NCBI GenBank assembly: GCA_039566865.1
Contig: CM076949.1
Location: 6,911,501 to 6,975,500 of the forward strand
Source of the DNA: Aurelia coerulea
Lineage: Eukaryota > Cnidaria > Scyphozoa > Semaeostomeae > Ulmaridae
Length of the DNA: 64,000 nt
Direction: 5' to 3'
Below the pieces are notes generated by a model. That model had not been told where the DNA came from. It was given only the letters and a program-made list of their open reading frames with translations, and made no database searches. The position numbers and the translations under genes were made by a program. This document shows, piece by piece, positions 21,743 to 64,000 of this stretch (position 1 is its first letter; each line of letters starts with the position of its first letter).

Positions 21743-22223
21743 AAGAATTTTGGCTGGCGGTGCATTTCTGGTTGCTTAAAATCCCTATTGAAAACAAGGT
21801 GGGCTGCTTGATAATCCATGGCATTTGTTATCAAATTGTGTGTTTGTATCACCATAACATTGCTTTCACTCTCAATGGGGCATATTCACTTATATTGAAT
21901 TTTGATTTTGTTTCCCCTAAGTTTGATAAATTGTATCCGAGGTTTTATCAATCATCATCTATTTTTAATTTTGATAGTTGGGAGCGGTAACTCTGAAAAG
22001 TGCGTTTAAGTTTTTGATGTAACCAAAACTGAATAGATAACGCTGACGAATAATAATCGATCTTTGATTGTAACGATTTATCGGGCAAATCTGAAGAATA
22101 TGTTTAGTCTGATATTGTCACTATAGCTGACTGGAGTGTGGACGTGTTTGGATCAGTCGAATTGGAGTTCGGCTGCAAGCTGCCGTATATTTGCTAGCAA
22201 TCTGACTGACACAATACATCATC
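21743..22223. promoter_or_regulatory. putative 5' flank of dystroglycan-like head 1
   Basis: This is the non-coding stretch directly upstream of the first head's start codon. It ends in ACATCATCATGT. No TATA box or known operator is obvious; the assignment as promoter and 5' UTR rests only on position. Confidence 0.3.
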
Positions 22224-25200
22224 ATGTATCAAAAGATCTCAACAGTTAAATTACTTGTTTTCATCTATTTTGTATTTTCAGTCTTACCAATAAAGTCTGC
22301 TGCTGACTTCACAAGACATTCTCCTGAAGATGTCTGGAAAATTTTCAAGGATTCTAAAGGAGGTTTAGCTGTATACACGACATCCGATGGAAGCCATCTC
22401 AAGCTGAAAGTCAGATGTAATGGTACTAAGACTCTTTCTGCTTTTCAACTTAATAATTTGCCAAATAAACTATCGAAAACGAAGAAAAGAAACGGAGGGA
22501 ACGTAAAATTTGGCAAGAATGCAACCTCTGTTGTATTTCACCTCCAAAATTCTTCATATTCTAAATCTCTGCATATGACACCATTACCTGAGATCAATGT
22601 GAAAAAGAGCAAATTCGCGATTTACCTCGCTGTCAATTTCGGTAAAGAATTTCAGGGTACTATCATCATTGGTGACCAAACAAAAATCTGCAGTTGCTTC
22701 GAATTGCACGTGAAGAGTTCCAGAGGTTCCAGCCATTCAAGACGAAAACGCTCCGCATCGAACTACCCCTGCGAGGACTCTCAAAGGATCTCAAGAGCTG
22801 TCGTTGTACTTAACGTTGCATATGCTTCACTTTCGTCGCAAGAACGACAGGCAATTACGAGCAGAATGGCGTCTTACGCTGCCGTATCTCTCAGTTACGT
22901 CGATATCGTAAGGCATACTGGTTTCGTTTATGTGTTCTATCCAGCGACAATGCTAGAATTTATATCAGGCGATCACTTACTTACAGTGGCAAATAGCACG
23001 GTAATTATAGTGTTAAATAGTTTCTCATTTTATAATGGGTGTCCTGAAAAGTACTCCTGTTTGAAAAATCATCAAATTCTACTGCAAGGCAGATCTCCAT
23101 ATTTCTTTTTTGGCCATGTAGATAAAGGACCAAATTGGTTTCCCAGACATGGTTGATGTTGTAATTGGTTTTAAAATAAGCAAGTTTAACTCTTTTTAGG
23201 GCTGCCTGGTTTTGAATCATACTACAAAGAGTGTCGATGATTCCAAATCAACTTCTCTGTCCATTCGAGGCTCTTAATTTGCTCAAAAGTGACGGGAAGA
23301 AACGTGCACTATCTTAGGAGACTGCAAGGACAATAAAAAATCTGAAAATTTTGACTATAAGGCAAGATTTACGTTTTTCTTGGAAAGTATTACTCAAAAT
23401 ACTGCTTCTTTTGAGTGTGTAATACTTTTGTCTTTAAGCATAGAAAACAAACATGTTATCATCCATAAATGTTTTTGGCCATTGATATTACAAATCGAAA
23501 AGAGAATTTTATCATAGTTGTTATAATAGACTTTTGTGATTTTTTAAACAGGGGTACTATTTATTAGGACAGCCGATATGTCGGACGCAAAGACCTAGAC
23601 TTGTGACTTTTCGTCCCTTATTTCCATGCGTTCTTTGATTTGCTGATATCACTTGGTAATAGGACTCTTATAAAGTTAGGCCCATATGGATTGGTTCCAT
23701 ATTTACCAATCAAATTGCTAGAATTTAGTTTTCAACCAATAAGGAGGCGCTATTTAGACAGTTGTTGTTGTTGCGTACAAAAAACGGTTGATACGGCCAG
23801 AGTTCTCGTAGCTGTGATAGATTCATTTTGTTTCTACAGAGGAAGATTACTGCTTGAAAATTATATATTTTGCGATGAGTAGGTCAAGAAAACATTATTA
23901 TTTGTACTAAATGTTTGCTTTTCAATGTTGAAGCCCGTTAAACCAGACTTTAAAGCGATTTTGTTGATTGTACGAGAACTCTCGCTAGATTAGGCCATTT
24001 TGAAACAGGGGGCCCACTTAATAAGAGTAATGGTATGAGTCCCTATTGAGCAAGTGATATCAGCAAATCAAATAACGCAAGGAAACAAGGGATGAATAGT
24101 CATAAGTCTAGCAAAGACCTACAAACAAATAAAAGGATTTTGGATGAGTAATTTTGCGTTATTGCGAATCTCGGATGACTGAGATCACGCTTTACTGTAC
24201 CGTACCAGTACAGTTTTGATCCGCTGCAAAGTTGTTACGGTTCAAGTGTGTTTACACCGCCCTTGAACAAAGTTATGCTATCGATAGAAGGAACAAAATG
24301 TTTACGGATTAGCAGGATAGTGTAAACGTGAGGCTGATCGGTTACAATTTTGTTACAGATCCAAAGTTACCAGCACAGTGTAACCTTGTCTTTATGCGAG
24401 ACAGACTTTAGTAAAGCAGCAAATTTTACATTTTGGAAGGAAGCTTAAAATAGTTCCAAGCCTGTAGCTTGCTATCTTTTCATCAGATAATGTGTCCATC
24501 GAAGTACAGTCAATTTCACGTGATATTTCATGTGATCATTTTGGTAAAGGAGCTCACTGCGTGGCAAGGAGTGATCTAAGCAGACTGATGACTAGACTTA
24601 TGACGATGAGTCTCTTGTTTCTCTGTGCTCTTTGACTTCTTGATGGCGCTTCAGTCAACAGAGACTCATAATATTACTCTGAAAAACCTGACCCTATTTA
24701 GGCCTAATATGCTGGGATTCCTAGCATACCAATCAGAATGCGAGATTTGGCGAAGAACAATAAGTTTCGAACCTTCGATTCGATTGACGCAGCTTACTAA
24801 ATTTGAAGGAAGTTGCTGCAGCAGGTACTTGAATATTTCTCTGCTATGTCTTGGTCTTAAAAACATGGAAATTGCAGCATTAAAAGACTTATTTTGCACT
24901 CACCAGGTAAAGTGAACTTTCTTCTTCAGATGAATACCAAGTTTCGTTAATTAAGAGTCTGCTTACCGTGGTTTCTATCGCATTTCCTTTCTGAGGAGTG
25001 ACCGTTGAACAGAGCCGAAACAGTCGTTCGATCCAGATTCGATCAATCGAATGCAGAAGGTAGGGTCAGGTTTTTAACTGTTTCATTATGAGTCCCTGTG
25101 AGCAAGGTACCGCAGGGATACAAGGGACTCATCGTCATAAGTCTAACTGATGACTTACTTGCAATTGCGCTTTCGGAGCTGAAATTTAGTTTGCATGTGA

Positions 25201-25813
25201 TCATTTAAATTCTGCCAATCACTGTGTGCTCTTCATCAGCATCGTGTCAGCATATTTTGACAAAAGTGTATACGTGTTAGACACTCGATTAATAAGGTTT
25301 GACACCAATAAACGAAGTCTTAAACGCGATACTTCATAAGAACTCCAGCTTTAAATATACACGATTTCATAAAAACAGGCGGTCAAAAAAACTTAGGCCT
25401 AGCGTGACAACTACAACAACGATATCAAATCGAGGCTGATCGATGACGTAATCGATACTGAGAAAAGTGTCTCTTTGGGGGGTAAACATCAAAAAACAAA
25501 AACTACATGAAGCGTAAAATGCTAAACAATACGATTGTTCATACATTTCACATACGTGGCTGTACTGACATGGACATGCCTTTAAATTTATCATCTTTCG
25601 CTCAAGCAATAGAAAACTTGAAGCTTCTCTTTATCTGTTCTAGGTCCTCGAATATTTCGTAGCTTGCGGTGCCATATCAAGAACAGACAGCAAAGTGACG
25701 AAACTGAAAATTGATGCTGCTAGTGGCGCACTTAGTGCTGTTCTTCGTCATCCCGTCGCACGCGGTTTTGTCTTGATTGGTTACAAGGGATACTGGACAA
25801 CGCCCGCACCATT
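22224..25813 (+). CDS. dystroglycan-like N-terminal head 1 (two exons, open at 3' splice)
   Basis: Exon 1 is 22224-23000 (259 codons, donor ACG|GTAATT) and exon 2 is 25644-25813 (acceptor TTCTAG|GTC, donor ATT|GTGAGT). The start is the first Met, followed by a hydrophobic signal peptide (VKLLVFIYFVFSVLP). An Ig/cadherin-like domain (about residues 35-160, with Cys pair CNG..CSC) follows, then a dibasic furin-like site RRKR (about 173-176). The remaining part (VVVLNVAYASLSSQERQAI to GFVLIGY) matches alpha-dystroglycan domain 2, the S6-like fold, with its two Cys (YPCED, FVACG). The exon ends in TTPAP plus two bases, so it needs a further exon. The phase equals that of head 2 and fits the acceptor at 56093. 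Inferred role: matrix- or ligand-binding, secreted-side N-terminus. It could instead be a separate or dead paralogue. Confidence 0.75.
23596..24110. mobile_element. Mutator-like foldback element, copy A, in head 1 intron
   Basis: The terminal inverted repeat is about 59 bp: TAGACTTGTGACTTTTCGTC on the left and the inverted form ending GTCATAAGTCTA on the right, both leading into GATTTGCTGATATCACTTG. A 9 bp target duplication GCAAAGACC lies at 23587-23595 and 24111-24119. The element is 515 bp and has no transposase. A 9 bp duplication with long inverted ends fits the MULE class. Confidence 0.8.
24593..25145. mobile_element. Mutator-like foldback element, copy B, in head 1 intron
   Basis: The ends TAGACTTATGACGATGAGTC and inverted GACTCATCGTCATAAGTCTA show that it is the same family as the copy 500 bp upstream. 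A 9 bp target duplication ACTGATGAC lies at 24584-24592 and 25146-25154. The element is 553 bp with no transposase. The exact duplication implies a fairly recent insertion. Confidence 0.8.
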
Positions 25814-32849: not shown

Positions 32850-33130
32850 AGGGAGTGGTTTTCCAGCTTTTCACTCCCTGGGCAGCCCTCTTGTTTTACA
32901 TCCTCGTCACTATGACGTCATGTGTAATTCCAGCAAATTTTGCAAGACAAGCTCAGGTGACAGAAATAAATTTACTTTGACATGAGTTTAAGTCGATGAT
33001 CTTTTCCATCTTTCCTCCTCCGTGTACCCTTTTGTTCTCTATTCTCGTCGCTATGATGTCATGTGTAAAATCAGCAAATTTTGCAAGACAAGCTGATGTG
33101 ACAAAAATCGATAAATCTACTTTTTCCATC
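32850..33130. repeat. repeat block with TGACGTCA motif, second cluster
   Basis: Two copies of the same unit as at 31290-31560. One has the exact palindrome TGACGTCA (about 32912), the other TGATGTCA (about 33055); both are followed by CAGCAAATTTTGCAAGACAAGCT. The block lies 0.4-0.7 kb upstream of the head 2 start codon. A CRE-like role is inference. Confidence 0.65.
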
Positions 33131-33344
33131 GGTTTTTGGTAGGTGGTGGCTGATTCACTTATTCAGAAATAGCAGATAACTTTATGATTCATAAAATCTA
33201 TTCGGATAATTTATTAATTATTGCTTAGTCAATCGAGTTTACTTTTCCTAATTGATTTGCTGTGGTTGAAGATGCTGTGCAAAACAAGTAACAATAAATA
33301 TTTGATTGCAAGAACTATCTTAAAATAGTGATATCATTGCTTCT

Positions 33345-33546
33345 AGCAGTTTATTGAAAATGGTTTGGATGAAGGGTTGATTTTCGAGGATACTTCAAAG
33401 TCTGGCAGTTTTCTTAAATTGTTTGCAAGAAGTGTTGAATATTGAGGATACTTTAAAATCGTGCAGTTCTCTGAAATGGTTTGGGAGAGGTTTTGATCAC
33501 CGATACGTGAGAATCTGATACGAGGACAGATGCTTGAAAATCTGCC
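33345..33546. promoter_or_regulatory. putative 5' flank and UTR of head 2, with internal ~75 bp repeats
   Basis: Directly upstream of the head 2 start. GAGGATACTTCAAAGTCTGGCAG and GAGGATACTTTAAAATCGTGC are diverged copies about 70 bp apart, each followed by TTTTCT or TTCTCT and a TGGTTTG/TTGTTTG phrase. No TATA box is obvious. Assigned by position only. Confidence 0.35.
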
Positions 33547-34817
33547 ATGCAGTCAATTATGAAATGCTCTATTTTCCTGCTGCTGCCTTTATGGCTCAGT
33601 TGCTTCATATTACTGAGTGAGTCTCGAGGGATTGCCTTGCAAGATGATACGAATGATGCCATCAAATTCATCAGTAATGCAAGAGACAACATGAAATTTA
33701 GAGATTTGGAGTTTCCCCGGCAGCGTGTAACTCATGAGGTCGTAACCGAAGACGGTCTTTATTTTCATCTGCCTGTAAACTGTTCCATGTCAAACGATGC
33801 ATTGGCCTTCGATACTGACGACTTCCAAGAGATCCCTTGGTTGAAGCTTTCTAATGATGGACTCATCGCTCATGGATTTGTTGACGTCAAAGAGACTAAA
33901 CCAACTAGTACCATCTGTCTTGGAAATAGCTCTGCTGTTTGTGCTTGTATCGAGATGCATTGCGAAGGATGCGCCACACAGAGCGCAACGAAAATGGTTT
34001 CTATTAGTGGCACAGAGAGGGAGGACAAATTTGCTACCAAGAGTGCCGATTTAAGTACGACAACGCGTGCAGCAGAGAGCATCGAAGAACATGCCACGAA
34101 AAGGTTTGCAGGGAAGTTGATGAGGAACGAAGCATCAAATGCCATAAAAAGGGGATCGGTCACTGTCTCAATAAGTGGCACAGAGAGTGCTGCCAAAATT
34201 GCTTCCAAGAGTTCCAACCTAGGTGTGGCAAGGCAAGGAGCAAATAGTACCAAAGAAGGAATCATAAAACGGTTTGAAGGGAATCTCTTGAGCAGTGAAG
34301 AAAAAAGTGCTTTGACAAAGGCTAAAACGAATGTCACGGAAAGTGCCACAAGGGTTACAAGACATCGACCAAGGCGTGATGTAGCAGATTTGCAGTACCA
34401 AATCAGCTGTGGAGGCTCATCTAAAGTCACGGAAGGGGTCATACTCTTGAACGCAAATTTTCACAACATGTCCTCACAAGAAAAAGCTCAAATAGTATCA
34501 CAGGTATCAACTTACACAGAGGTAGGAAAAAGAAATATCATACTCAAAGAAAACCATGGTAATTTTTATAAAACTGAACTGTTAAACCCAAGTTTCATTG
34601 CTTTTGGTCTTGGTGACTCAACAGGTCAGATAGCAGAAACGACTATTATCAAGTTCCTTTTGGGCTGCGACAGTGTCCCCGGTACTGATAGTCGGATTGC
34701 AAAGATCAGAGCAGATAGCCCTTCTGGTACATTAACAGGGATTTTTGGCCACAAAATCATTGGTTGGTATGTCATTGCTGGGACATTTGTGCCAATAACT
34801 ACAACTGCTCCACCGAG
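33547..34817 (+). CDS. dystroglycan-like N-terminal head 2 (single exon, open at 3' splice)
   Basis: The start at 33547 gives a signal peptide (SIFLLLPLWLSCFILL). An Ig-like region follows (about residues 40-140, GLYFHLPVN to CACIEMHCEGC), then a Ser/Thr/Lys-rich linker made of two ~60-residue repeats that each begin VSISGTE. The furin-like RPRR is at about 274-277. The rest (GVILLNANFHNMSSQEKAQI, then FLLGCDS, then GHKIIGWYVI) matches alpha-dystroglycan domain 2 with its two Cys. The exon ends TTTAPP plus two bases at AG|GTAAAA. Joining to the acceptor at 56093 restores the frame (AG+C, Ser) and continues a Thr-rich linker, so this is very likely the 5' exon of the giant protein; the intron would be 21.3 kb. 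It differs strongly from head 1, and the equivalent of head 1's intron is absent here. Confidence 0.85.
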
Positions 34818-39495: not shown

Positions 39496-42400
39496 CCAAG
39501 TTTAAAAACACACTAACTAATGCAACCTTTATCATATATATATATATACTATACGCCTATGACCCTGTACTCGGCCTGTACTTTAAGTATAACACAAGCC
39601 ATAGACTAGTTACGAAATTCAAAATACAATATTGTAAGCTTAAAGAAATTCACCAACTGACTTCAAATTTGAAAACACACTGACTAATGCAACCTTTTAT
39701 CATATAAATATATATACTATACGCCTATGACCCTGTACTCGGCCTGTACTTTAAGTATAACACAAGCCATATACTAGTTACGAAATTCAAAATACAATAT
39801 TGTAAGCTTCAAGAAATTCACCAACTGACTTCAAATTTGAAAACACACTGACTAATGCAACCTTTTATCATATAAATATATATACTATACGCCTATGACC
39901 CTGTACTCGGCCTGTACTTTAAGTATAACACAAGCCATAGACTAGTTACGAAATTCAAAATACAATATTGTAAGCTTCAAGAAATTCACCAACTGACTTC
40001 AAATTTGAAAACACACTGACTAATGCAACCTTTTATCATATAAATATATATACTATACGCCTATGACCTTGTACTCGGCTTGTACTTTAAGTATAACACA
40101 AGCCATAGACTAGTTACGAAATTCAAAATACAATATTGTAAGCTTCAAGAAATTCACCAACTGACTTCAAATTTGAAAACACACTGACTAATGCAACCTT
40201 TTATCATATAAATATATATACTATACGCCTATGACCCTGTACTCGGCCTGTACTTTAAGTATAACACAAGCCATAGACTAGTTACGAAATTCAAAATACA
40301 ATATTGTAAGCTTCAAGAAATTCACCAACTGACTTCAAATTTGAAAACACACTGACTAATGCAACCTTTTATCATATAAATATATATACTATACGCCTAT
40401 GACCCTGTACTCGGCCTGTGCTTTAAGTATAACACAAGCCATAGACTAGTTACGAAATTCAAAATACAATATTGTAAGCTTCAAGAAATTCACCAACTGA
40501 CTTCAAATTTGAAAACACACTGACTAATGCAACCTTTTATCATATAAATATATATCTATACGCCTATGACCCTGTACTCGGCCTGTGCTTTAAGTATAAC
40601 ACAAGCCATAGACTAGTTACGAAATTCAAAATACAATATTGTAAGCTTCAAGAAATTCACCAACTGACTTCAAATTTGAAAACACACTGACTAATGCAAC
40701 CTTTTATCATATAAATATATATACTATACGCCTATGACCCTGTACTCGGCCTGTACTTTAAGTATAACACAAGCCATAGACTAGTTACGAAATTCAAAAT
40801 ACAATATTGTAAGCTTCAAGAAATTCACCAACTGACTTCAAATTTGAAAACACACTGACTAATGCAACCTTTTATCATATAAATATATATACTATACGCC
40901 TATGACCCTGTACTCGGCCTGTGCTTTAAGTATAACACAAGCCATATACTAGTTATGAAATTCAAAATACAATATTGTAAGCTTCAAGAAATTCACCAAC
41001 TGACTTCAAATTTGAAAACACACTGACTAATGCAACCTTTTATCATATAAATATATATACTATACGCCTATGACCCTGTACTCGGCCTGTGCTTTAAGTA
41101 TAACACAAGCCATATACTAGTTATGAAATTCAAAATACAATATTGTAAGCTTCAAGAAATTCACCAACTGACTTCAAATTTGAAAACACACTGACTAATG
41201 CAACCTTTTATCATATAAATATATATACTATACGCCTATGACCCTGTACTCGGCCTGTACTTTAAGTATAACACAAGCCATATACTAGTTACGAAATTCA
41301 AAATACAATATTGTAAGCTTCAAGAAATTCACCAACTGACTTCAAATTTGAAAACACACTGACTAATGCAACCTTTTATCATATAAATATATATACTATA
41401 CGCCTATGACCTTGTACTCGGCCTGTACTTTAAGTATAACACAAGCCATAGACTAGTTACGAAATTCAAAATACAATATTGTAAGCTTCAAGAAATTCAC
41501 CAACTGACTTCAAATTTGAAAACACACTAACTAATGCAACCTTTATCATATAAATATATATACTATACGCCTATGACCCTGTACTCGGCCTGTACTTTAA
41601 GTATAACACAAGCCATAGACTAGTTACGAAATTCAAAATACAATATTGTAAGCTTCAAGAAATTCACCAACTGACTTCAAATTTGAAAACACACTGACTA
41701 ATGCAACCTTTTATCATATAAATATATATACTATACGCCTATGACCTTGTACTCGGCCTGTACTTTAAGTATAACACAAGCCATATACTAGTTACGAAAT
41801 TCAAAATACAATATTGTAAGCTTCAAGAAATTCACCAACTGACTTCAAATTTGAAAACACACTGACTAATGCAACCTTTTATCATATAAATATATATCTA
41901 TACGCCTATGACCCTGTACTCGGCCTGTGCTTTAAGTATAACACAAGCCATAGACTAGTTACGAAATTCAAAATACAATATTGTAAGCTTCAAGAAATTC
42001 ACCAACTGACTTCAAATTTGAAAACACACTGACTAATGCAACCTTTTATCATATAAATATATATACTATACGCCTATGACCTTGTACTCGGCTTGTACTT
42101 TAAGTATAACACAAGCCATAGACTAGTTACGAAATTCAAAATACAATATTGTAAGCTTCAAGAAATTCACCAACTGACTTCAAATTTGAAAACACACTGA
42201 CTAATGCAACCTTTTATCATATAAATATATATACTATACGCCTATGACCTTGTACTCGGCTTGTACTTTAAGTATAACACAAGCCATAGACTAGTTACGA
42301 AATTCAAAATACAATATTGTAAGCTTCAAGAAATTCACCAACTGACTTCAAATTTGAAAACACACTGACTAATGCAACCTTTTATCATATAAATATATAT

Positions 42401-45400
42401 CTATACGCCTATGACCCTGTACTCGGCCTGTGCTTTAAGTATAACACAAGCCATAGACTAGTTACGAAATTCAAAATACAATATTGTAAGCTTCAAGAAA
42501 TTCACCAACTGACTTCAAATTTGAAAACACACTGACTAATGCAACCTTTTATCATATAAATATATATACTATACGCCTATGACCTCGGCCTGTACTCTTG
42601 GCCTGGCCTGTACTTTAAGTATAACACAAGCCATATACTAGTTACGAAATTCAAAATACAATATTGTAAGCTTCAAGAAATTCACCAACTGACTTCAAAT
42701 TTGAAAACACACTGACTAATGCAACCTTTTATCATATAAATATATATACTATACGCCTATGACCTTGTACTCGGCCTGTACTTTAAGTATAACACAAGCC
42801 ATAGACTAGTTACGAAATTCAAAATACAATATTGTAAGCTTCAAGAAATTCACCAACTGACTTCAAATTTGAAAACACACTGACTAATGCAACCTTTTAT
42901 CATATAAATATATATACTATACGCCTATGACCCTGTACTCGGCCTGTACTTTAAGTATAACACAAGCCATATACTAGTTACGAAATTCAAAATACAATAT
43001 TGTAAGCTTCAAGAAATTCACCAACTGACTTCAAATTTGAAAACACACTGACTAATGCAACCTTTTATCATATAAATATATATACTATACGCCTATGACC
43101 TTGTACTCGGCTTGTACTTTAAGTATAACACAAGCCATATACTAGTTACGAAATTCAAAATACAATATTGTAAGCTTCAAGAAATTCACCAACTGACTTC
43201 AAATTTGAAAACACACTGACTAATGCAACCTTTTATCATATAAATATATATACTATACGCCTATGACCCTGTACTCGGCCTGTACTTTAAGTATAACACA
43301 AGCCATAGACTAGTTACGAAATTCAAAATACAATATTGTAAGCTTCAAGAAATTCACCAACTGACTTCAAATTTGAAAACACACTGACTAATGCAACCTT
43401 TTATCATATAAATATATATACTATACGCCTATGACCCTGTACTCGGCCTGTACTTTAAGTATAACACAAGCCATATACTAGTTACGAAATTCAAAATACA
43501 ATATTGTAAGCTTCAAGAAATTCACCAACTGACTTCAAATTTGAAAACACACTGACTAATGCAACCTTTTATCATATAAATATATATACTATACGCCTAT
43601 GACCTTGTACTCGGCCTGTACTTTAAGTATAACACAAGCCATAGACTAGTTACGAAATTCAAAATACAATATTGTAAGCTTCAAGAAATTCACCAACTGA
43701 CTTCAAATTTGAAAACACACTGACTAATGCAACCTTTTATCATATAAATATATATACTATACGCCTATGACCCTGTACTCGGCCTGTACTTTAAGTATAA
43801 CACAAGCCATATACTAGTTACGAAATTCAAAATACAATATTGTAAGCTTCAAGAAATTCACCAACTGACTTCAAATTTGAAAACACACTGACTAATGCAA
43901 CCTTTTATCATATAAATATATATACTATACGCCTATGACCTTGTACTCGGCCTGTGCTTTAAGTATAACACAAGCCATAGACTAGTTACGAAATTCAAAA
44001 TACAATATTGTAAGCTTCAAGAAATTCACCAACTGACTTCAAATTTGAAAACACACTGACTAATGCAACCTTTTATCATATAAATATATATACTATACGC
44101 CTATGACCCTGTACTCGGCCTGTGCTTTAAGTATAACACAAGCCATATACTAGTTACGAAATTCAAAATACAATATTGTAAGCTTCAAGAAATTCACCAA
44201 CTGACTTCAAATTTGAAAACACACTGACTAATGCAACCTTTTATCATATAAATATATATACTATACGCCTATGACCTTGTACTCGGCTTGTACTTTAAGT
44301 ATAACACAAGCCATAGACTAGTTACGAAATTCAAAATACAATATTGTAAGCTTCAAGAAATTCACCAACTGACTTCAAATTTGAAAACACACTAACTAAT
44401 GCAACCTTTATCATATAAATATATATACTATACGCCTATGACCCTGTACTCGGCCTGTACTTTAAGTATAACACAAGCCATAGACTAGTTACGAAATTCA
44501 AAATACAATATTGTAAGCTTCAAGAAATTCACCAACTGACTTCAAATTTGAAAACACACTGACTAATGCAACCTTTTATCATATAAATATATATACTATA
44601 CGCCTATGACCCTGTACTCGGCCTGTACTTTAAGTATAACACAAGCCATAGACTAGTTACGAAATTCAAAATACAATATTGTAAGCTTCAAGAAATTCAC
44701 CAACTGACTTCAAATTTGAAAACACACTGACTAATGCAACCTTTTATCATATAAATATATATACTATACGCCTATGACCCTGTACTCGGCCTGTACTTTA
44801 AGTATAACACAAGCCATAGACTAGTTACGAAATTCAAAATACAATATTGTAAGCTTCAAGAAATTCACCAACTGACTTCAAATTTGAAAACACACTGACT
44901 AATGCAACCTTTTATCATATAAATATATATACTATACGCCTATGACCCTGTACTCGGCCTGTACTTTAAGTATAACACAAGCCATAGACTAGTTACGAAA
45001 TTCAAAATACAATATTGTAAGCTTCAAGAAATTCACCAACTGACTTCAAATTTGAAAACACACTGACTAATGCAACCTTTTATCATATAAATATATATAC
45101 TATACGCCTATGACCCTGTACTCGGCCTGTACTTTAAGTATAACACAAGCCATAGACTAGTTACGAAATTCAAAATACAATATTGTAAGCTTCAAGAAAT
45201 TCACCAACTGACTTCAAATTTGAAAACACACTGACTAATGCAACCTTTTATCATATAAATATATATACTATACGCCTATGACCTTGTACTCGGCCTGTAC
45301 TTTAAGTATAACACAAGCCATATACTAGTTACGAAATTCAAAATACAATATTGTAAGCTTCAAGAAATTCACCAACTGACTTCAAATTTGAAAACACACT

Positions 45401-46437
45401 GACTAATGCAACCTTTTATCATATAAATATATATACTATACGCCTATGACCTTGTACTCGGCTTGTACTTTAAGTATAACACAAGCCATATACTAGTTAC
45501 GAAATTCAAAATACAATATTGTAAGCTTCAAGAAATTCACCAACTGACTTCAAATTTGAAAACACACTGACTAATGCAACCTTTTATCATATAAATATAT
45601 ATACTATACGCCTATGACCTTGTACTCGGCTTGTACTTTAAGTATAACACAAGCCATAGACTAGTTACGAAATTCAAAATACAATATTGTAAGCTTCAAG
45701 AAATTCACCAACTGACTTCAAATTTGAAAACACACTGACTAATGCAACCTTTTATCATATAAATATATATACTATACGCCTATGACCTTGTACTCGGCCT
45801 GTACTTTAAGTATAACACAAGCCATATACTAGTTACGAAATTCAAAATACAATATTGTAAGCTTCAAGAAATTCACCAACTGACTTCAAATTTGAAAACA
45901 CACTGACTAATGCAACCTTTTATCATATAAATATATATACTATACGCCTATGACCTTGTACTCGGCCTGTACTTTAAGTATAACACAAGCCATAGACTAG
46001 TTACGAAATTCAAAATACAATATTGTAAGCTTCAAGAAATTCACCAACTGACTTCAAATTTAAAAACACACTAACTAATGCAACCTTTTATCATATAGAT
46101 ATATATACTATACGCCTATGACCCTGTACTCGGCCTGTACTTTTAGTATAACACAAGCCATAGACTAGTTACGAAATTCAAAATACAATATTGTAAGCTT
46201 CAAGAAATTCACCAACTGACTTCAAATTTGAAAACACACTGACTAATGCAACCTTTTATCATATAAATATATATACTATACGCCTATGACCTTGTACTCG
46301 GCCTGTACTTTAAGTATAACACAAGCCATAGACTAGTTACGAAATTCAAAATACAATATTGTAAGCTTCAAGAAATTCACCAACTGACTTCAAGTTTGAA
46401 AACACACTGACTGATGCAACCCTTTATCAAATAAATG
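39496..46437. repeat. 168 bp satellite array, about 41 copies
   Basis: A 168 bp unit (ATACTATACGCCTATGACC ... AAATTCAAAATACAATATTG ... CACACTGACTAATGCAACC) is repeated head to tail with very few changes. Variants at a few positions (CCCTG/CCTTG, GTACTTT/GTGCTTT, CATAGAC/CATATAC, TATATACTATA/TATATCTATA) recur in patterns, which implies local duplication of multi-unit blocks. Edge copies are more diverged, as expected for homogenised satellites. It has no coding potential and lies inside the proposed large intron of the dystroglycan-like gene. Confidence 0.97.
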
Positions 46438-46441
46438 TATA

Positions 46442-53190: not shown

Positions 53191-53200
53191 ATTCATTTTT

Positions 53201-54150
53201 AGGCCGTAAGCGAATGATTAAGCTTTAACGGCAAAAGAGCATAACAAACAAACCTGTAATCTGTCTTTAGGCCGTAAGCGAATGATTAAGCTTCAACGGC
53301 AAAGAGAATAAAGTAACTTAATCTGTTTTCAGGCCGTAAGCGAATGATTAAGCTTCAACGGCAAAAGAGAATAAAAGTAAGCTAATCAATTTTTGGGAGT
53401 AAGCGAATGATTAAGCTTCAACGGCAAAAGAGAATAAAAGTAACCTGATTAATTTTTAGGCCGTGAACAAATGATTAAGCTTTAACGGCAAAAGAGAATA
53501 AAAGTAACCTAATCAATTTTTAGGCAGTAAGCGAATGATTAAGCTTCAACGGCAAAAGAGAATAAAAGTAACCTAATCAATTTTTAGGCCGTGAACGAAT
53601 GATTAAGCTTTAACGGCAAAAGAGAACAAAAGTAACCTAATCAATTTTCAGGCCGTAAGCGAATGATTAAGCTTTAACGGCAAAAGAGAATAAAAGTAAC
53701 CTAATCGATTTTTTAGGCCGTAAGCGAATGATTAAGCTTTAACGGCAAAAAGAGAATAAAAGTAACCTAATCAATTTTTAGGCCGTAAGCGAATGATTAA
53801 GCTTCAACGGCAAAAGAGAATAAAAGTAACCTAATCAATTTTTAGGCCGTAAGCGAATGATCAAGCTTCAACGGCAAAAGAGAATAAAAGTAACCTAATC
53901 GATTTTTTAGGCCGTAAGCGAAATGATTAAGCTTCAACGGCAAAAGAGAATAAAAGTAACCTAATCTATATTTAGGCCGTAAGCGAATGATTAAGCTGCA
54001 ACGGCAAAAGAGAATAAAAGTAACTTAATCTGTTTTCAGGCCGTACGCGAAGGATTAAGCTTCAACGGCAAAAGAGAATAAAAGTAGCCTAATCTATATT
54101 TAGGCCGTAAGCGAATGATTAAGCTTCAAACGGCAAAAAGGGGAATAGAA
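53201..54150. repeat. ~62 bp tandem array
   Basis: About 15 copies of AGGCCGTAAGCGAATGATTA, AGCTTCAACGGCAAAAGAGA, ATAAAAGTAACCTAATC. Starts are seen at 53201, 53269, 53331 and then every ~62 bp. Diverged relative to the 168 bp satellite. The core GATTAAGCTTCAACGG is shared with the next array. Confidence 0.93.
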
Positions 54151-54154
54151 GATA

Positions 54155-54985
54155 ACCTACTCGAATGATTAAGCTTCAACGGAAGCGAACGAATCAATTT
54201 TCAATGGACGCAAATGAATTAAGCTTCAACGGAAGCGAACAAATTAAACTTCAACGGAAGCGAACGAATTAAGCTTCTACAGAAGCGAACGAATTAAGCT
54301 TCAACGGAAGCGAACGATTTAAGCTTCAACGGAAGCGAACGAATCAATCTTCAATGGACGTAAACAAATTAAGCTTCAATGGAAGCGAACAAAATTAAGC
54401 TTCAACGGAAGCGAATAAATCAAGCTTCAAACGGAAGCGAACGAATTAAGCTTCATCGGAAGCGAACGAATTAAGCTTCAACGGAAGCGAACGAATCTAT
54501 CTTCAATGGACGCACAGGAATTAAGCTTCAACGGAAGCGAACAAATTAAGCTTCAACGGAAGCGAACGATTTAAGCTTCAACGGAAGCGAACGAATCAAT
54601 CTTCAATGGACGTAAACGAATTAAGCTTCATGCTATCCCTGCCATTTTAAACTAGGGGTATTTTTATACTAGATCTTTAGTTTTTATTACCATTTCATAC
54701 ATGTAAATAGCCTTTCTTTCCTTTATTACATTTTTAATTTTTACTTTGTATGGCAAAATTTTACATACATACATACATTCAATGGAAGCGAACAGAATTA
54801 AGCTTCAATGGAAGCGAACAAATTAAGCTTCAAACGGAAACGAACGAATTAAGCTTCATCGGAAGCGAACGAATTAAGCTTCGACGGAAGCGAACGAACC
54901 TATCTTCAATGGACGCACACGAATTAAGCTTCAACAGAAGCGAACGACTTAAGCTTCAACGGAAGCGAACAAATTAAGCTTTTAA
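54155..54985. repeat. ~25 bp tandem array derived from the 62 bp core
   Basis: Many copies of AAGCTTCAACGGAAGCGAAC with a ~25 bp step and variants such as TTCAATGGACG, interrupted at 54640-54775 by unrelated sequence. The open frame at 54750-54977 is repeat-derived. A distant relative, CGCAAGCAGAAGGTTAAGCTTTAGCGG, lies at 55085. Confidence 0.9.
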
Positions 54986-55850
54986 CGGAAGCGATTTCAG
55001 TGCCATGATAAAATAAAAACTACTAAAATGTTAAATAATAAATTGTTTGTTTGTATGTTTGTATGTTTGTTTGTTTTTTACGACCGCAAGCAGAAGGTTA
55101 AGCTTTAGCGGTTTACGAGCAAAGTTGAGAGGCATATCACTCTGGAAAAAATCTCGTACGCCTTAGGCAAAAAGACAACCTATTTGAGTAAAAAACATTA
55201 AAATATCCCTTAAAAACCTGTAGTAAAACAAAAATTAGAATAAAGGTCTCGTACGGTTTTGAAGAATGATACACCCCTCAGAAAGAATAAATATCCTACA
55301 ATACGTTTTGTGAACATTTATTGCACGTGCCTTACTAAAACCTCAATTACCCTTTTCTTGTTTTTCAGTTAGAGTGAAATTTACGAGTAGGCCTAGCCCT
55401 TTTTTGTGACCCTATAGAACTGCTGCAACACCCTGAAGTAAACTTTTTGAAAAACGAGTCTTAACGAAAGACAAAAAGAAGAAAACCAAAAACTGTGTGT
55501 CGAAATAGAATGCGTTGAAAAAACAAAGGGCAGCTGTATAAGAGCTAGTGAAAATAAACCTTCTTAAAAACTCGCTGTGTCTAGGCCTATGCACCAAAAT
55601 GGCAGTGAAATATCACACGTGCAGCTATGAGAACAGCAAGAAACTGCCAAAAAATGAAAACAAAACTCACGTTGTTCGGGGCAGGTGCATTTGCAACTGC
55701 TGGATTTGGTATTGCTGCTGGTTGTTGAGCAGGTTTTCCTTGATTTTATAAAACTGCAGTGACTTCAGCATCAGAAATCTGCACTGGCTGCTGTGCTTGC
55801 TGTGTCGTGGCAGTGACGGTTCGCTCTGTTTCGATTTTGAGATGCAGTTC
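54986..55850. other. non-coding part of large intron
   Basis: A TTTGTATG-type short repeat at 55045-55075; otherwise no supported gene. The open frames here lack recognisable domains. Confidence 0.4.
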
Positions 55851-56092: not shown

Positions 56093-56471
56093 CACAACAA
56101 CGGCTGCAGGTCCACAACCACCCTCCGTTAACAAGATACCAACAATCATCATCTCAAATACGACGTTCCGATTTGAGTTTCAAATCCCAGCAAATACATT
56201 TGTTGACAAAGAGGATGGAAACACGCGCAATCTCAATCTGTACTTGTACAATTCAGCTGGCAGTGTGTTATCAAAAGCCTCCTGGATCAGTCTACAAACA
56301 ACTCAACAGATATTAAGGATGTATTCCTCCAAGGCTATAGTCGCAGCACAGCCAACCGGGGGTTACACATACAGACTGAGCGCTATTGATTCGAGTGGAA
56401 GGGAAAGTCATACTGATGTTCAAGTTTCATTTAATCGACCAATCAGTTCGCCGGGATATCTCCGAACAATG
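56093..56471 (+). CDS. exon: Thr linker and first CADG domain of the giant dystroglycan-like protein
   Basis: Acceptor ATCGTAG|C and donor ATG|GTAAGC. The first base completes the codon left open by either head. The exon reads TTTAAGPQPPS, then the CADG signature FEFQIPANTFVDKEDGNTRN, WISLQTTQQILRMYS, YRLSAIDSSGRES. This is the dystroglycan-type cadherin-like fold, with the Asp/Glu calcium-type loop (DKEDGN) and the TD/ID-S-G-S strand. The exon ends in phase 0, matching the phase-0 acceptor at 57784. An internal ATG at 56244 is not a start. Confidence 0.88.
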
Positions 56472-56694
56472 GTAAGCTGAGTTCATCTTTTCGTAAATCT
56501 TTGTTGATTTTTTATTGGAAGAATCAATTTTAAACATTTTCATCGGAAAAATAAAGGTGAACCCTAACCAGCCTTATGTATGTTCTCTTTTCAAAATGTG
56601 CTGTCGAAGAAGAATCCTTCATACTTTAATTGTACCGTGATATCTGTTTCGATGTATCTATTGTCTAGAAAAGTCAGATTCTAAAGAAAATGAT

Positions 56695-56826
56695 TCGATT
56701 TGATTGATGTTGATTTGATTTGATTTGATTTGATCTGATTTGATCTGATCTGATCTGATTTGATTTGATTTGATTTGATTTGATTTGATTTGATTTGATT
56801 TGATTTGATTTGATTTGATTTGATTA
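56695..56826. repeat. (TTTGA)n pentanucleotide microsatellite
   Basis: About 25 tandem TGATT units with a few TGATC variants, lying in the 1.3 kb intron between the first CADG exon and the giant exon. Confidence 0.97.
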
Positions 56827-57783
56827 GTATCTTTATAGACGATGTTCCAATCACCAAGAGGTGTTTTTCATGGGGCTCCTCGAAAAGTAAAAATTGCAAT
56901 GCAGTTATGAAAATAGCAATTAAAAGTATGCCTAAACCTAATAGAATCTTACACAGCTAAAAGCGATTACAGTTTTCAGTGAAATTTATAATTGTTCATT
57001 CCATTCTTTAAAAAGAAATAGTTTTGAAGATCTTTGTTTCTCCCACTTAGTTCTTGAGTTCGGTAATCTGAATTCTTGCAACTTTGAGTTTTTGCTGCCG
57101 AAGGCAGCCTTAACTATTCTTCTTCAATCAACGAGCGAAATTAGCCTGTCTGCCTGTCTGCCGGCTGTCTGCCGTCAGGCTATGTAGATAGACGGGCCAG
57201 CTCACGGCTGCGGTTCTCGGTCTCGCGGCTTGTGAGGATTTATCCAACAAACAACAACAAAAGTTCTCAAACAAAAGATAATGAGTTCTTCCTGCCTACT
57301 TAACTACCTAACTACGTCAATGGACGACAAAGGTTTATTCCTGACAATGCAGGACTCAATATTATGGACCACGGAACCAAGAGCCTTGGACTCGGGAACT
57401 AGAAACTGGCGGAGGAGAGTAACTCAATATTCTAAATCATTTACCTTTGAAGCATTACCCAACTGTAAATTCAAACATGATACACGTTTCCTTAGCAATA
57501 ATCGTTCAATTACTTTCGATAAAATTGACCTCGCTACAGTCGCATTTGGTACAAATAGTAATCGGCAGCAGTCGCTGACTGATGTTATATCTAGTATTGG
57601 TATATATTTCATTACCCCTCTTGCTGTGTGTGTTCACGTTAGTGTACAGACTCTTCCTTACATATGAACCCCTGTGTTCCAACTTGCAAGTCATCTTCTC
57701 AAGCAAAAATATGTTGTTTGTTTCCTGTATCTTCTAACTACAGCAGCCAGGCTAATTATGACATTTTTCTTCGTTTCATATAG
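56827..57783. other. intron before the giant exon
   Basis: A CTGTCTGCC-rich patch at 57150-57180; the plus frame 57281-57667 has no domain. The intron ends TTTCATATAG at 57783. Confidence 0.6.
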
Positions 57784-60700
57784 CTCCTCACTTCAACAAC
57801 AACGGTGGTAGTTACCAGTTTCTTTGATGTCGACATCTTATTCCTGCTTCAATCCAAGATGGCGGCTTACCTCAACATCAAGGCAACGGATATCTTCACA
57901 TCAGTATTTACTGTAGCAAGAAGTGGCAATGCAATGTTGGCTATCACTTACACATTCAGCACACGAGGCCTCGCACAACCAACATGCAATGAGACGGCTG
58001 TCTCCAACCTCCGATCCAAAATGGCTGGATCTGCTGCGCAGGAAGCTTTCACAACAGCCTTGCGACCACAATTCATTGTCACATCGCTGTCAGGAGAAAA
58101 TTTCCAAGGTCCGTGCAGCTATCTTTCTAGCAATCCGGCTACAATCGGCGTGGTTATTAACAGCTTGGGATTACAGATTGGTAAAGTCTTCTCGTTTGCT
58201 ATCCCAGCCACTACGTATTTATCCCCCGCAGGGACGAACATGAGATTAAGTCTTCAGCTCAGATTTGCAAACAACACAAATCTACCATCGAATTACTGGA
58301 TGGGCCTAAGTCAGAAGTACCTCGATCAAAATGTAAAGATGGAAGGTGTTGCAACATGGAGATCAGTATCCCAGCAATCGTCGTTTACATTCAAGCTTGT
58401 GGGTTTAACACCATTGTTGGTTGAAACTTCTCAAAATGTTCTATTCAATGTGCAGAAAAGTGTCACTACGATTCTGTTCTCAGTTGTGATGACCCAGTCG
58501 TCGGCTATAACGATTTCAACCGTTTCATTCATCAACTTATTCGAGTCTTACATGAGTTCGTACTTGGGTGTGTCGTCATCAAGCTTCGTCATCATTGATT
58601 TCGTTGTGTCATCAAACACCATTCTTTCATGGACCTTATCCACTCTGTCATCACCCCCCTGCCAGACCTCTGAAATCAACAACGTTAAAGCTAAGCTGTT
58701 AAAAAGCGACGGGAGTGTGAATGATGATTTGCGTGCAGGACTTATAAGCCAAGTCAACTTTACGCCTTCCAATGTAAAATTCAACACATTCGGAAGCTGT
58801 GATGTGCCTAGAATCAATATACAAATACCAACACTGCAGATACCGAGATACGATGCTTTGAATTACGTTGTACCGTCAAATGCTTTTATAGATGGCAGAG
58901 ATGGTACTAATCTGAAGTTAGAGCTAAATCAAGAGAATGGCAGCACACTTCCAGCGAATTCTTGGATCTGGTTTGATAGAAATACAAGAACAATCTCAGG
59001 AATGCCTTATGATTTATCTAGCACAAAAACCTTCAAATATGTGCTCAGAGCAACAGATTCAGATGGTTCCTCAGTTCAGCAAACCGTTACAATTTCACTT
59101 GGATGGACAGCTCCTGCTTACAATGCTTTCTTCCATATTGAATTCAGCTATCTCCCATCAACGTTACCAATAGCCAAAATCACCACAACATTTCTCCGAC
59201 AACTAAAAGCATACTTCAAGCAGTCTGCTGCACAGAATATCATTATCTTCCAGCCAACGTTGATTAACAGTAAAGTCAGCTTATATTACCAAAACACGTC
59301 CCTGCGAGCTGATATTTGTGATCCTGGTAGTGCGTACATAATGGGGATGATAGGTGACACCGCACAACAATCCAAACCAAAACAAACCTTTATTTCTGCA
59401 ATGCAGCCAAATTTCACGATCACACTGGTCGAAGAAAAACAAAAGAAGCCTGAATGTTTGATTAAGAATAAATTCGGTCCAGCTTTTGCTCCAATTAATA
59501 CAGGTGTCTTTGCTTTTTGGTCGAGTGTAAAGACTGTGCCATACTGTGGTGTAAGTACGTATCTCGTTCCAGCGGGTACATTTCTGGACGAGGAAGATGG
59601 CAACACAAGGAATCTAAAGCTGAATTTAACAAGCACTAATAGCAAGCAACTTCCCATGAATAACTGGGTGACTATTAATGGTACCTCGCAAACTCTATAT
59701 GCAGTTGCTGATGACGGTGTTCACTCTAGCTTGGGAGGAAGTATTGTGAGCTACAGACTGACAGCTACTGACAGTGGCGGTAAGTCAGATGGTATAGAAT
59801 TGAAATTTACTGTCAGTGGTCCACCACCATCCGGATATTACAACATCACCATGACGCTGAATGTATTACAGCTTGGAAATCAACCATATCCTTTACAGAT
59901 CGCACCACTGCTTGCAAGTTTGCAGAATATGTTTCCAAAGGGACTTGGTGTACAGGTACGCTCGTATAATGTCATCGGCAAAATCAATGTTGGTCATCAG
60001 GCAGTATTCGTATGGAGCCCTTGTAATATGCTAAACAACCGCTGCAATGCAACTGCTATTGAACTTATCAGATCAAAAATTTTCACTGCAAGCACGAATA
60101 CCATGAACCCGAATCTGAACTCATTGATTGACAGGAGATTTCAAGTGACAAATGTCATAGAATCACGTAGTGGCCCATGTAAACAAGACCCTCCAGTTGT
60201 ACTTAGAAATGTGCCAACACTCAGCATCAAATTCTGTGGTCCGTTTTCATACAAGATCCCGGCGAATACTTTCAAAGACAACCAAGATGGTAATACTTCA
60301 AAACTAGCATTGAAACTCTTGCAAACAAACGGAAATGCAATCCCGGGGGGATTCTGGCTGCAATTTGATTCGAGCAAACAAGAGATAACCGCAGTATTAA
60401 CCAAAGTGCAATCATCTTCAAGTTACCCAAAACAGCATGTTTTCATGTTAGTGGCTACCGACTCAACCGAGCTGTCTGTGAACACAACAGTCATCGTTCG
60501 AATAGATGGCACTTTCCCAACCTATAGCCATGAATTTTCACTTCAAACTATTTACTCTTTATCTTCAAATTCACATCTACTCTACGAGTTTGCAACGAAA
60601 TTCCGTAGCTTCCTTGGAGACAGTGGACAAAACTTCCTTGCCATAAGTATGACCCCAGCAGCAGGTAATAAAGTCATTATAACTTGGTCAAACTGTTCAC

Positions 60701-63700
60701 TTCGATATAACCCTTGTGATGTATTGAAAATCAAGCAGGTCAGGGACAAACTGCAGACCAATAGTGGTACTATAAGTAATGCATTCACACAAGCCATGGC
60801 ACCAACGTTCAGCCAACTCTTCCTAACAGAGAAGAACCATGGACCTTGTCTTGTGGATAGACCTCCGGTAGTTGCCGCTCCATTTGGCCCTATTTCTGTG
60901 ACAACCTGTGAGACGTTTAAAGCAACGATTCCACAAGGGACTTTTACCGACAATGAACAAGGCAATGCTCGTAACCTGGACATGAAAATAAAAGGTAATA
61001 CGAACAATTGGATAAGTTTCGACCGTTCAAAGCAAGAGATCTCCATAATTGCAACGAATCAAATCGCAGCAAGCTTATCGTCGAAATCAGTCACTGTTGT
61101 TTTGTCTGCGACTGATGCCAGCCAACAAGAAGCTCAACAAAATCTTGTCATAAACATCACCCCCGTCTCAAAACCTGTTACCCAGAAGATTACAATGCGA
61201 TACCGTCTGCGTTCATTGCCAGCCGGTGGGAATTTTGTTTCAGTGTACAATGCTATGAGGAATGATATTGTGAAATATTTCACTTCTACTAATGTTGTAA
61301 ATTCAATTGAATATGGCACACTCCCAACTAGTTTACAGTTGAACACGTTGCTTACAGCAGAATGGAGTAGTTGTTCATTATCACGTGACTCCTGTGATAC
61401 TAGCTCGATTAGAACGATGACATCAATGATCTTAAACAATGGTGCCGTGACTCAAGCTTTCAAACAGGCCTTGCAGCCATATATTGAGATATCAACCGTG
61501 ACATTTTCATATCAAGGTCGCTGCAAAGAACAAATTTCCCCACCTGTTGTGCAAAATCCACTGCCAATCTTCAACCTGAGTTTCTGCGGTTATCAAGTTT
61601 TCAAAATTCCCGCCAATACTTTTTACGATTCACTAGATGGCTATGCACCAAACATGACATTGAGTATATTGAACACAAGTGGTCAAGTTGCTACTGAAAA
61701 ATGGATGTATTTCAATCAAGCCACGCAGACGATTACCATCATACTATCTGACGATGCCTTGCCCAAGTTAATTCCTCCCACAGTACTTCAATATAAAATC
61801 AAAGCTGTCACCAAAAGAGGTCTTTCTGTAATGGATGATTTACGGTTCAGCATTACTGAACCACACAAGAATGTGAGTTTCTCAATCAAAGTAAACTTCG
61901 CGTATCTGGACACGAGTCAACCAAACAGAAACATAATTCTGTCCATTTTTATGGACCGGGCTGCATCATATTTAGGTGGTAGATCAAGCGACATTCACTT
62001 TGCGTCAATTACTGAGACAAAGTTATCAATTGGTACATATTTTGTGGTCGACTTTGCCAATTGCAGTGTCCGGTATGAACCTTGTGACAAAGCAATATTA
62101 CTAAATACACGAAACAAGGTATATGATGAAAGTGGAACACTTCCAGCTTTCAAGGCTGCTTTTGGTTCTAAGTTCCAAATCACTTATGTGCAGTTGAAAA
62201 CATTTGGTCCATGCAATATCAGAAATACGGCACCTTACGTGAAAACGCCACTAACGAAGATTCAAGTTCGGGCGTGCTCTGACTTCAACTACACGATACC
62301 CGCTGGCACCTTTATGGATGAAGAGGACTCTAACCTACAATTATCTGTCACAAAGATTAACGGGCTGCCGGTCAGTGGAAGCTATGAGTGGGTGGGAATC
62401 AACCCTGGGGCGCACGTGCTCGTGGGCATTGTGACCGACTCTGTCATTTCGAGGCAGCCTTCTGGTGGTTATAAACTGACAATCCGTGCAACGGATAGTG
62501 GAAAACTGTCAGCAGAGACTCAATTAATCGTCCAAATTGTTGACAGCATGCCTCAGAAATTGTATCAGTTCACAATGAAGCTGACTGCTAAATCGACAAT
62601 GAGCAGTCAGTTTTTTGAAGAACTAAGGGTCATTCAACTGCTAAACAGATACTTTGATTCGAGATTTACACATGTAATGGGTTCTGTTGTGACATCAAAC
62701 ACAATCACATTGAGAAGCAGCATCTGCAGTTTACCAAATAAATGCGATGAGACATTGGCATCTTCATATTTTAACAGACTTGTCACTGCAGAGAAAACCG
62801 TACCTCAGGCACTAGCTAATTTCTTTGCTGGCTATACTGTTACCTCTGTGTCCGTTTATAGAAATCCATTATGTCTCGTTCCACTAAACCCACCCGTTCC
62901 TTCAATGGCAACTTGGAGAATTACTGGCTCTTACTGCGGAGGATTTCGGGTCACGGTACCAATTGATCTTTTCAATGACAAAGAGGATGGGAACACCAGA
63001 AACCTTGCTTTGGAACTGTATCAGAATTCAAAAGACCCAATAAATTCGAAGTTTTGGGTACAGTTGAACAAGACTTCACAAGAAATTTACGGCTATCCAA
63101 CAAGAAAGCTAACTATAGCGTACACAACTTCCACACGGATTTCACTGGTCGCAAAGGATAGCACTGGGCAGGAAGGATCTGTCAATGTTGTGTTTTCTTT
63201 CACACAGCACCCTGTACCAAAATATGTCTATAAGGTCGTCTTTGAGAGCGTTTACAGTACTACTGTTGATGAAGTTACACTATTTTCTACCAAGATGAGA
63301 TCATTTCTCCATGACAAGTCAACATCCAGTTTTGGTCTCATTGACCATCCCAGCATATCCAGCACTACTCATTTCATAGAATTTGCTAACTGCTCTGTTT
63401 CATACAATCCTTGCGACATATATGGATTAACAACCGTAAAGAATCGCTTATTAACAAGCAGTAACTTACCAACTCCTGAATTCAAGGCAGCAATAAGGCC
63501 GTTTGCCATCAGTTACGGGACAGTACAACTCACAAGTCCATGCTCTACCGCTGCTACCAACCCGCCTATTGTTGTCAATAGAATAAATTATCTGAATATA
63601 TCCTATTGGTCAATCTTTACATTCCAGATTGCTACAAATACATTTTACGACACCGAAGATGGGAACACGAGGCGCCTAACTTTACATCTTACAAATGGCA

Positions 63701-64000
63701 ATAATCAAGCTCTGTCTTCCAATTTCTGGATGCAACTAAACACAAAAACGCAAATGATAACAGCTTATGCGTACTCCTCTCTAGCCTTATCACAACCATC
63801 GTTGGGATACTCCTTCATATTGACTGCAACAGACAGCACCAGCCTATCAGCCTCTAATTCATTCTATGCAAGACTTTATGGGCCTTACAAGATCTTTAAC
63901 GATTGTCAGATCAAAATTAAATTCAATGTAGGTGCCTCCTTGACAACAAGCAGCAACAACGCATTAGCCGACCGCGTGATCAAGTCCTTACAATCCTACT
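57784..64000 (+). CDS. giant exon: tandem CADG + SEA-like/DAG1 units of a mega-dystroglycan (3'-partial)
   Basis: Open from the acceptor at 57784 to the window end in one frame, >2,070 codons. It begins with the SEA-like half of the first unit, then carries nine more CADG domains, starting at about 58165, 58838, 59540, 60226, 60904, 61582, 62272, 62932 and 63607 (step ~680 bp). Clear CADG signatures are IPANTFKDNQDGNTS, VPAGTFLDEEDGNTRNL, VPIDLFNDKEDGNTRNL and IATNTFYDTEDGNTRRL; the first (AIPATTYLSPAGTN) is degenerate. Each is followed by W..F/L..Q.I and a TATDS-type strand, then by ~120 residues with NCS....NPCD (e.g. FANCSVRYEPCD), AF..A..P.F and GPC. That is the order of dystroglycan's membrane-proximal DAG1 region, including its disulphide cysteines. 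Many N-glycosylation sequons are visible. Transmembrane and cytoplasmic parts are not reached. Inferred role: very long extracellular adhesion stalk. Confidence 0.9.

Follow-up and report, generated by a model that had tools for sequence, protein, structure and literature searches.

A 64,000-nucleotide stretch of the Aurelia coerulea genome (assembly GCA_039566865.1, contig CM076949.1, forward strand, hereafter ‘the window’, C7:6911501-6975500) contains the beginning of a giant gene, here called mega1, which encodes a tandem array of CADG+SEA units. The array comprises 20 units which, as judged from their sequences, are dystroglycan CADG (IG2)+SEA/DAG1 modules, and the array is real and intact and, by comparison with relatives, old. 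In our reading, the product of mega1 is probably a giant adhesion receptor of the dystroglycan superfamily that crosses the membrane once and would provide a long-reach link between the outside and the inside of the cell. Dystroglycan is usually regarded as a single conserved receptor that has one Ig+SEA unit next to the membrane. Coordinates are given in window numbering, including positions past 64000, unless a contig is named.

A profile built from units 5, 6 and 7 only detected 20 repeats in the mega1 frame, each at E <= 1.1e-8, and iteration of the profile gave unit E values from 2.7e-19 to 1.1e-75. As a control, 50 shuffled copies of the frame gave one match at E <= 1. The unit starts are spaced 213–274 residues apart, and identity between units averages 20.4% (range 10.8–31.3%, 190 pairs). 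Pfam searches with the part of the array inside the window matched DAG1 at 9.2e-32 and He_PIG at 2.4e-14. A single window sequence matched the beta-dystroglycan chain 8yt8_O of the Protein Data Bank (PDB) at E 7.9e-10, and a profile made from eight units of the window matched this chain across the whole unit at E 4.4e-29 (profile 1–225; chain 4–221 of 289). The three-unit mega1 profile also matched the fish dystroglycan P0054 (E 5e-22). The identification of the units as CADG plus DAG1 in an original prediction, made from the letters of the window, is upheld by the Pfam DAG1 and eight-unit profile matches. Ordinary cadherin or He_PIG repeats only, as a reading of the array, is ruled out, since DAG1 and the PDB beta-dystroglycan match as well.

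Relatives of the array are found in the same genome. The locus par3 (C7:17525234-17542383, minus strand) also carries these 20 units; its unit 5 contains a frame break and its unit 15 a gap, and head exon, array, transmembrane (TM) segment and tail follow in the same order as in mega1. A frame at C16:4988501-4997500 has 11 units, whose best matches are mega1 units 9–15 and 17–20, plus a TM segment. mega2 (C7:1728667-1743417) is one 4917-amino-acid frame with 16 units, in which a signal peptide, a TM segment, an S/T-rich stretch and PPPPYSPP in the tail were seen by eye; the mega2 tail has no Pfam match, and hmmscan and the genome search found no S6 head at this locus. In this one genome, at least four multi-unit loci are built from the dystroglycan unit. 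Two further loci, dgA and dgB, encode ordinary dystroglycans of one unit, with a Gly-Ser site, a TM segment and PPPY; the DAG1 match of dgA is near full-length (3–288 of 290), cytoplasmic part included. Other dystroglycan-like unit loci lie at C1:10450705, C1:10516453 and C6:787536-792286.

To follow unit order in proteins from elsewhere, the register was taken from the best match of each unit among the mega1, mega2, dgA and dgB units. The same-number mega1 unit was the best match for 20 of 20 units in P0019, 20 of 20 in P0020 and 15 of 15 in P0001, and P0004 has units 2–12 in order (11/11). At about 26% identity overall, the expected unit among units 3–20 was recovered for 15 of 18 in P0022 and 13 of 18 in P0021. 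mega1 is 49–51% identical to P0019 and P0020 across ~4450 amino acids, and these two proteins are somewhat nearer to par3b and par3c (52–57%), so we regard them as co-orthologs. Because the unit order 1–20 is kept at ~50% identity, the array is old and not a recent expansion. P0014–P0017 have 16 units each, 15 of them in an order common with mega2. P0001 is 87–88% identical to par3a and par3b and reads through the par3 break (C7:17530620-17537615 and 17537320-17540244), which is either an assembly error or a real lesion. A further set, the Oculina-type dystroglycans, comprises 21 proteins (P0006 and P0032–P0051; P0033 is from the stony coral Oculina patagonica) with 5–7 units each except in the fragment P0051; 19 of the 21 end in PPAYVPP, the exceptions being P0006 and P0051. 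In a genome search with an Oculina-type protein, an array of comparable identity was not seen in the A. coerulea genome, and the best match of the Oculina five-module dystroglycan was dgA (5.6e-38).

All exons of mega1 lie on the plus strand. Exon 1 (33547..34817) encodes the start codon, a signal peptide, an uncertain IG1-like stretch, the basic site RHRPRR and an alpha-dystroglycan S6 domain at 34408-34776, and ends in the phase required by exon 2 (56093..56471), which encodes the CADG of unit 1 (profile E 1.0e-35) and is delimited by splice sites and phase. Exon 3 (57784..71148, 13,365 bp) holds, up to 64000, the SEA of unit 1, units 2–9, and the CADG and SEA start of unit 10; CADG 1–10 and SEA 1–9 are thus complete inside the window, whose end cuts unit 10, and the remainder of the exon, up to 71148, carries units 11–20. 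As read from open reading frames, 57784-63999 is open over 2072 amino acids and reaches the window end, and in the contig sequence past the window the full open frame of the array comes to 4467 amino acids (stop side at 71187). Exon 4 (71519..71783) is the TM exon, and three tail exons (74480-75728, 77769-78217 and 80216-80708) are bounded by splice sites. The splice from exon 2 to exon 3 is in phase, and the exon 2/3 and 3/4 junctions match P0002, a protein of another source. Joined in phase, exons 1–4 encode 5093 amino acids (565 kDa) and the three tail exons ~730 amino acids. There is a single strong TM segment, with a best 19-residue hydropathy of 3.44 at residue 5040; the next value, 2.15, belongs to the signal peptide. 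The original prediction of an uninterrupted frame of >6.2 kb joined to a preceding exon was correct as to the open frame and the in-phase splice, but the array has 20 units rather than ten, and its extent has to be corrected since two introns and further exons also belong to the gene.

The S6 domain of exon 1 scored 27.4 bits against PF18424 in the genome search (cut-off 26.1) and 26.0 bits, just under the cut-off, in hmmscan. Across the 574-Mb genome, PF18424 gave three matches (three candidates scored), namely mega1 exon 1, an exon upstream of par3, and dgA. The first two both sit ~21 kb upstream of a 20-unit array on the same strand, and the par3 head exon (46.8 bits) is homologous to mega1 exon 1. 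A Pfam Ig match is absent from exon 1, where the resemblance to IG1 was seen by eye only. A furin site between S6 and a mucin-like region was not found in the translation, in which RHRPRR precedes S6, nor, by eye, was a mucin-like region between head and array, as CADG 1 starts ~30 residues after S6. Farther upstream, at 22224-25813, the window contains a second S6-like module. Its candidate 5′ exon A1 (22224..23000, plus strand) encodes a signal peptide (by eye), RRKR and the first part of the module, and falls within an intact open reading frame (22206-23156) with a GT donor at 23001 in phase 0; candidate exon A2 (25644..25813, plus strand) encodes the end of the module, is flanked by an AG acceptor and a GTGAGT donor, and ends in phase 2, which fits exon 2. 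The similarity of A1 to exon 1 is weak (E 1.4e-7 pairwise, only 0.027 in the genome search), A2 weakly matches exon 1 residues 366–422 (E 0.045, genome search), and neither hmmscan nor the genome search found a PF18424 match in the second module. On its sequence, the module could be an alternative head or a duplicated first exon pair. A promoter scan of 33000-33600 used a bacterial consensus and is uninformative for this animal gene.

Two cysteine pairs were followed through the units. The classical SEA pair (Cys669-Cys713 of dystroglycan) had been noted in every unit of the window, and this is so for 9 of 9 complete units there, but not for the array as a whole. The co-occurrence of its two cysteines gave a Fisher p of 0.08 in a first alignment and 6e-6 in a larger one. 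The extra pair has one cysteine in the first CADG strand and the other in the ‘NCS’ segment of SEA. Over 410 units, both extra cysteines were present in 220, one alone in 7 and neither in 183, a co-occurrence whose significance is inflated by kinship among the sequences; five bacterial-type proteins (P0007, P0012, P0029, P0030, P0031) and units not spanning profile positions 12–205 were excluded from this count, with one par3 half unit retained. Both extra cysteines occur in 152 of 192 mega1-type and 65 of 89 mega2-type units (217/281 giant-type), in 3 of 6 units of P0005, in 0 of 104 Oculina-type units and in 0 of 19 other dystroglycan rows; among these 19, two carry one of the cysteines and two are P0008 duplicates. 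The pair is missing from units 1–3 and 20 of mega1 and from units 2, 3 and 20 of par3. In a 115-unit tree, one column changes 12 times and the other 10 times, jointly only 13 times. This repeated joint gain or loss leads us to predict that the extra pair forms a new disulfide tying CADG to SEA. In mega1, twenty bricks stand in an order that relatives keep at ~50% identity, and the majority of giant-type bricks have a cysteine pair foreign to ordinary dystroglycan.

At the aligned columns of the maturation site, Gly-Ser is present in dgA and dgB and in 0 of the 20 mega1 units, and a pattern search of the mega1 frame for G[ST] followed by three hydrophobic residues gave no occurrence. In the last unit, the region of the Gly-Ser site reads N-A-S in mega1, P0002 and P0003 and N-Y-T in P0024–P0028, followed by hydrophobic residues, so that a glycosylation sequon lies about where dystroglycan is cleaved; the pattern used was unmatched in P0019–P0023. 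At the membrane, mega1 has a cysteine-rich juxtamembrane segment, and its cytoplasmic tail contains an internal PPLY and many RRxS-like motifs. The TM segment, the cysteine-rich segment and PPLY align among mega1, P0002, P0021 and P0022. A DAG1 match, which in dgA includes the cytoplasmic domain of beta-dystroglycan, is absent from the TM exon and the three tail exons of mega1. Of the transmembrane helix and the PPxY tail that were to be looked for in the contig past 64000, a TM segment and a PPLY in the tail are present, but the motif is internal and the protein ends in DSNV.

What the sequence shows directly is which parts there are, how they are arranged and that relatives keep the units in order; from this we infer how the protein may work. 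The layout is a signal peptide, an alpha-dystroglycan-type S6 head, 20 CADG+SEA units, a TM helix, the cysteine-rich juxtamembrane segment and a tail with PPLY and RRxS-like motifs. The SEA units are presumed mostly not to be autocleaved, so that the ectodomain would be one chain. Most middle units would have the extra CADG-to-SEA disulfide, giving a stiff rod with the S6 head at its tip far from the cell; from general domain sizes, its reach might be roughly 100–150 nm when fully extended. The tail could couple to WW-domain proteins through PPLY and to basophilic kinases through the RRxS-like motifs, both of them putative links. Such a receptor would work like dystroglycan, with a longer reach and a different wiring at both ends, and in it SEA domains devoid of their cleavage site would play a structural part. 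A bolder version, about which we are somewhat more doubtful than confident, is that the giants form a distinct receptor class whose ectodomain, an old rod with a set length, serves as a calibrated molecular ruler, with nearly all middle units disulfide-locked and the end units (1–3 and 20 in mega1; 2, 3 and 20 in par3) unclamped, and with mega1 perhaps mounting either of two S6 heads (22224-25813 or 33547-34817).

Tandem repetition of the dystroglycan unit is already known. According to the available text of Adams and Brancaccio (2015; PMC4582122), the dystroglycan of Nematostella has six tandem IG2_MAT_NU modules and dystroglycans of several phyla have two, the maturation site is not conserved in the Nematostella modules, and the repeats were suggested to hold the head at a greater distance from the cell. 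The original statement that no protein of this shape had been described thus does not hold, since both the six-module form and the idea of a longer stalk are in that paper; the 20 units of mega1 exceed it, and the extra cysteine pair predicts a new disulfide. If the rod is rigid, the earlier idea that additional modules hold the head a set distance away from the cell becomes testable. The repeats sit in one large exon (Brancaccio and Adams, 2017; PMC5216574, as far as its available part goes), a pattern that holds for mega1 save for the CADG of unit 1. The available parts of PMC10293626, PMC7853314, PMC8382919 and PMC9917425 do not describe such a giant protein, and a 16- or 20-unit form was not found in the open-licence literature. 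Compared by its published description, as partly available, the Nematostella vectensis dystroglycan resembles mega1 in its tandem CADG/IG2+SEA modules, in a maturation site that is not conserved and in modules diverged among themselves, and differs in having 6 units versus 20; the Oculina-type proteins, with their 5–7 units, are probably its kin. Vertebrate DAG1 (PDB 8yt8, 9c3c, 8uf4) shares with mega1 the CADG+SEA module, the SEA cysteine pair, the S6 domain and a single TM segment, but has one unit, a mucin-like region, Gly-Ser (GS) autocleavage and a dystrophin-binding C-terminus, the last three of which were not found in mega1. mega2 and P0014–P0017 are alike in their giant CADG+SEA arrays, TM segment and extra cysteine pair, whereas mega2 differs from mega1 in its unit set, S/T-rich stretch and PPPPYSPP tail, and in that an S6 head was not found.

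Several observations weigh against the favoured reading of mega1 as an intact, uncleaved receptor of dystroglycan modules with a coupled tail. Searched unit by unit, Pfam DAG1 reached E <= 0.01 in 5 of 19 units and its cut-off in 3 of 19, so for the majority of units, given their divergence, Pfam by itself does not suffice. Of the 20 mega1 units, only 14 have both cysteines of the classical SEA pair (and, by a stricter count, only 97 of 192 mega1-type units do). P0002 and P0003 hold only units 1–9, 19 and 20, so 20 units are not universal. At the aligned GS columns, unit 7 reads Gly-Thr, and in unit 8 a GSVV occurs a few residues before them, so that cleavage of single units could still take place. 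PPLY is internal in mega1, and a tail PPxY was not seen in P0023–P0028. Lastly, the phases of exon 4 and the first tail exon (exon 5) are incompatible, and the gene model therefore probably lacks a small exon between the two. As for P0002 and P0003, the lack of units 10–18 may reflect a shorter natural array or a skip in the gene models.

An unlikely alternative that nonetheless has some weight is that mega1 is a structural or shed matrix protein, whose array is released as an extracellular building block after transient anchoring. The 60 N-glycosylation sequons of the array, the RHRPRR basic site in exon 1 and the long repeat architecture agree with it; the TM segment, the cysteine-rich juxtamembrane segment and the long tail, with motifs aligned in P0002 and P0021/22, do not, and neither do the TM segments kept in par3 and the C16 frame or the membrane-proximal unit without a GS site. 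It is quite improbable that mega1 is simply the dystroglycan of this animal, an enlarged version of the Nematostella six-module kind acting between laminin and dystrophin, even though it has the same module, the S6 head and a single TM segment, tandem modules are on record for Nematostella (in the available text of PMC4582122) and the genome contains EF-hand_2 exons of the dystrophin family. Against this, dgA, with its near full-length DAG1, is the best match of the Oculina five-module dystroglycan and dgB is a second dystroglycan, while the mega1 TM and tail exons have no DAG1 match, the protein ends in DSNV versus PPAYVPP in 19 of 21 Oculina-type proteins, and an aligned GS site and a mucin-like stretch were not found. 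A plain orthologue of the Oculina-type dystroglycan is rejected because dgA is the best match in the genome, the C-terminus differs and DAG1 is absent from the mega1 tail. The protein, initially named ‘mega-dystroglycan’, is thus related to dystroglycan but is not simply a dystroglycan with more repeats, given dgA and dgB and that several defining features of dystroglycan (the aligned GS site, the mucin-like region and the beta cytoplasmic domain) were not found.

A rapidly varying recognition receptor with repeat turnover, e.g., in allorecognition, is very unlikely: there are several paralogs, the mega1 units have a mean identity of 20.4% and candidate alternative heads exist, and the 11-unit P0002 and P0003 indicate that unit blocks can be lost, but unit number and order are kept in P0019 and P0020, order is kept in P0001, P0004, P0021 and P0022, and most units cluster with their same-number counterparts in relatives. 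An assembly artefact, a pseudogene or a recent repeat expansion, to which the par3 frame break in unit 5 might point, is refuted for mega1 by its 4467 open codons, by units only 10.8–31.3% identical and by the 20-unit co-orthologs P0019 and P0020 on other contigs.

Other features of the window lie outside the coding parts of mega1. Within intron 1, a non-coding 168-bp satellite (39497..46441, plus strand) has 41.3 copies with a 98% match and a GC skew near -0.33, and 64-bp and 25-bp minisatellites lie at 53195-54994. Further upstream, a rhodopsin-family seven-transmembrane exon (PF00001) was found at 6807-7517 on the minus strand, and a reverse-transcriptase fragment (PF00078) at 16474-17454 on the plus strand.

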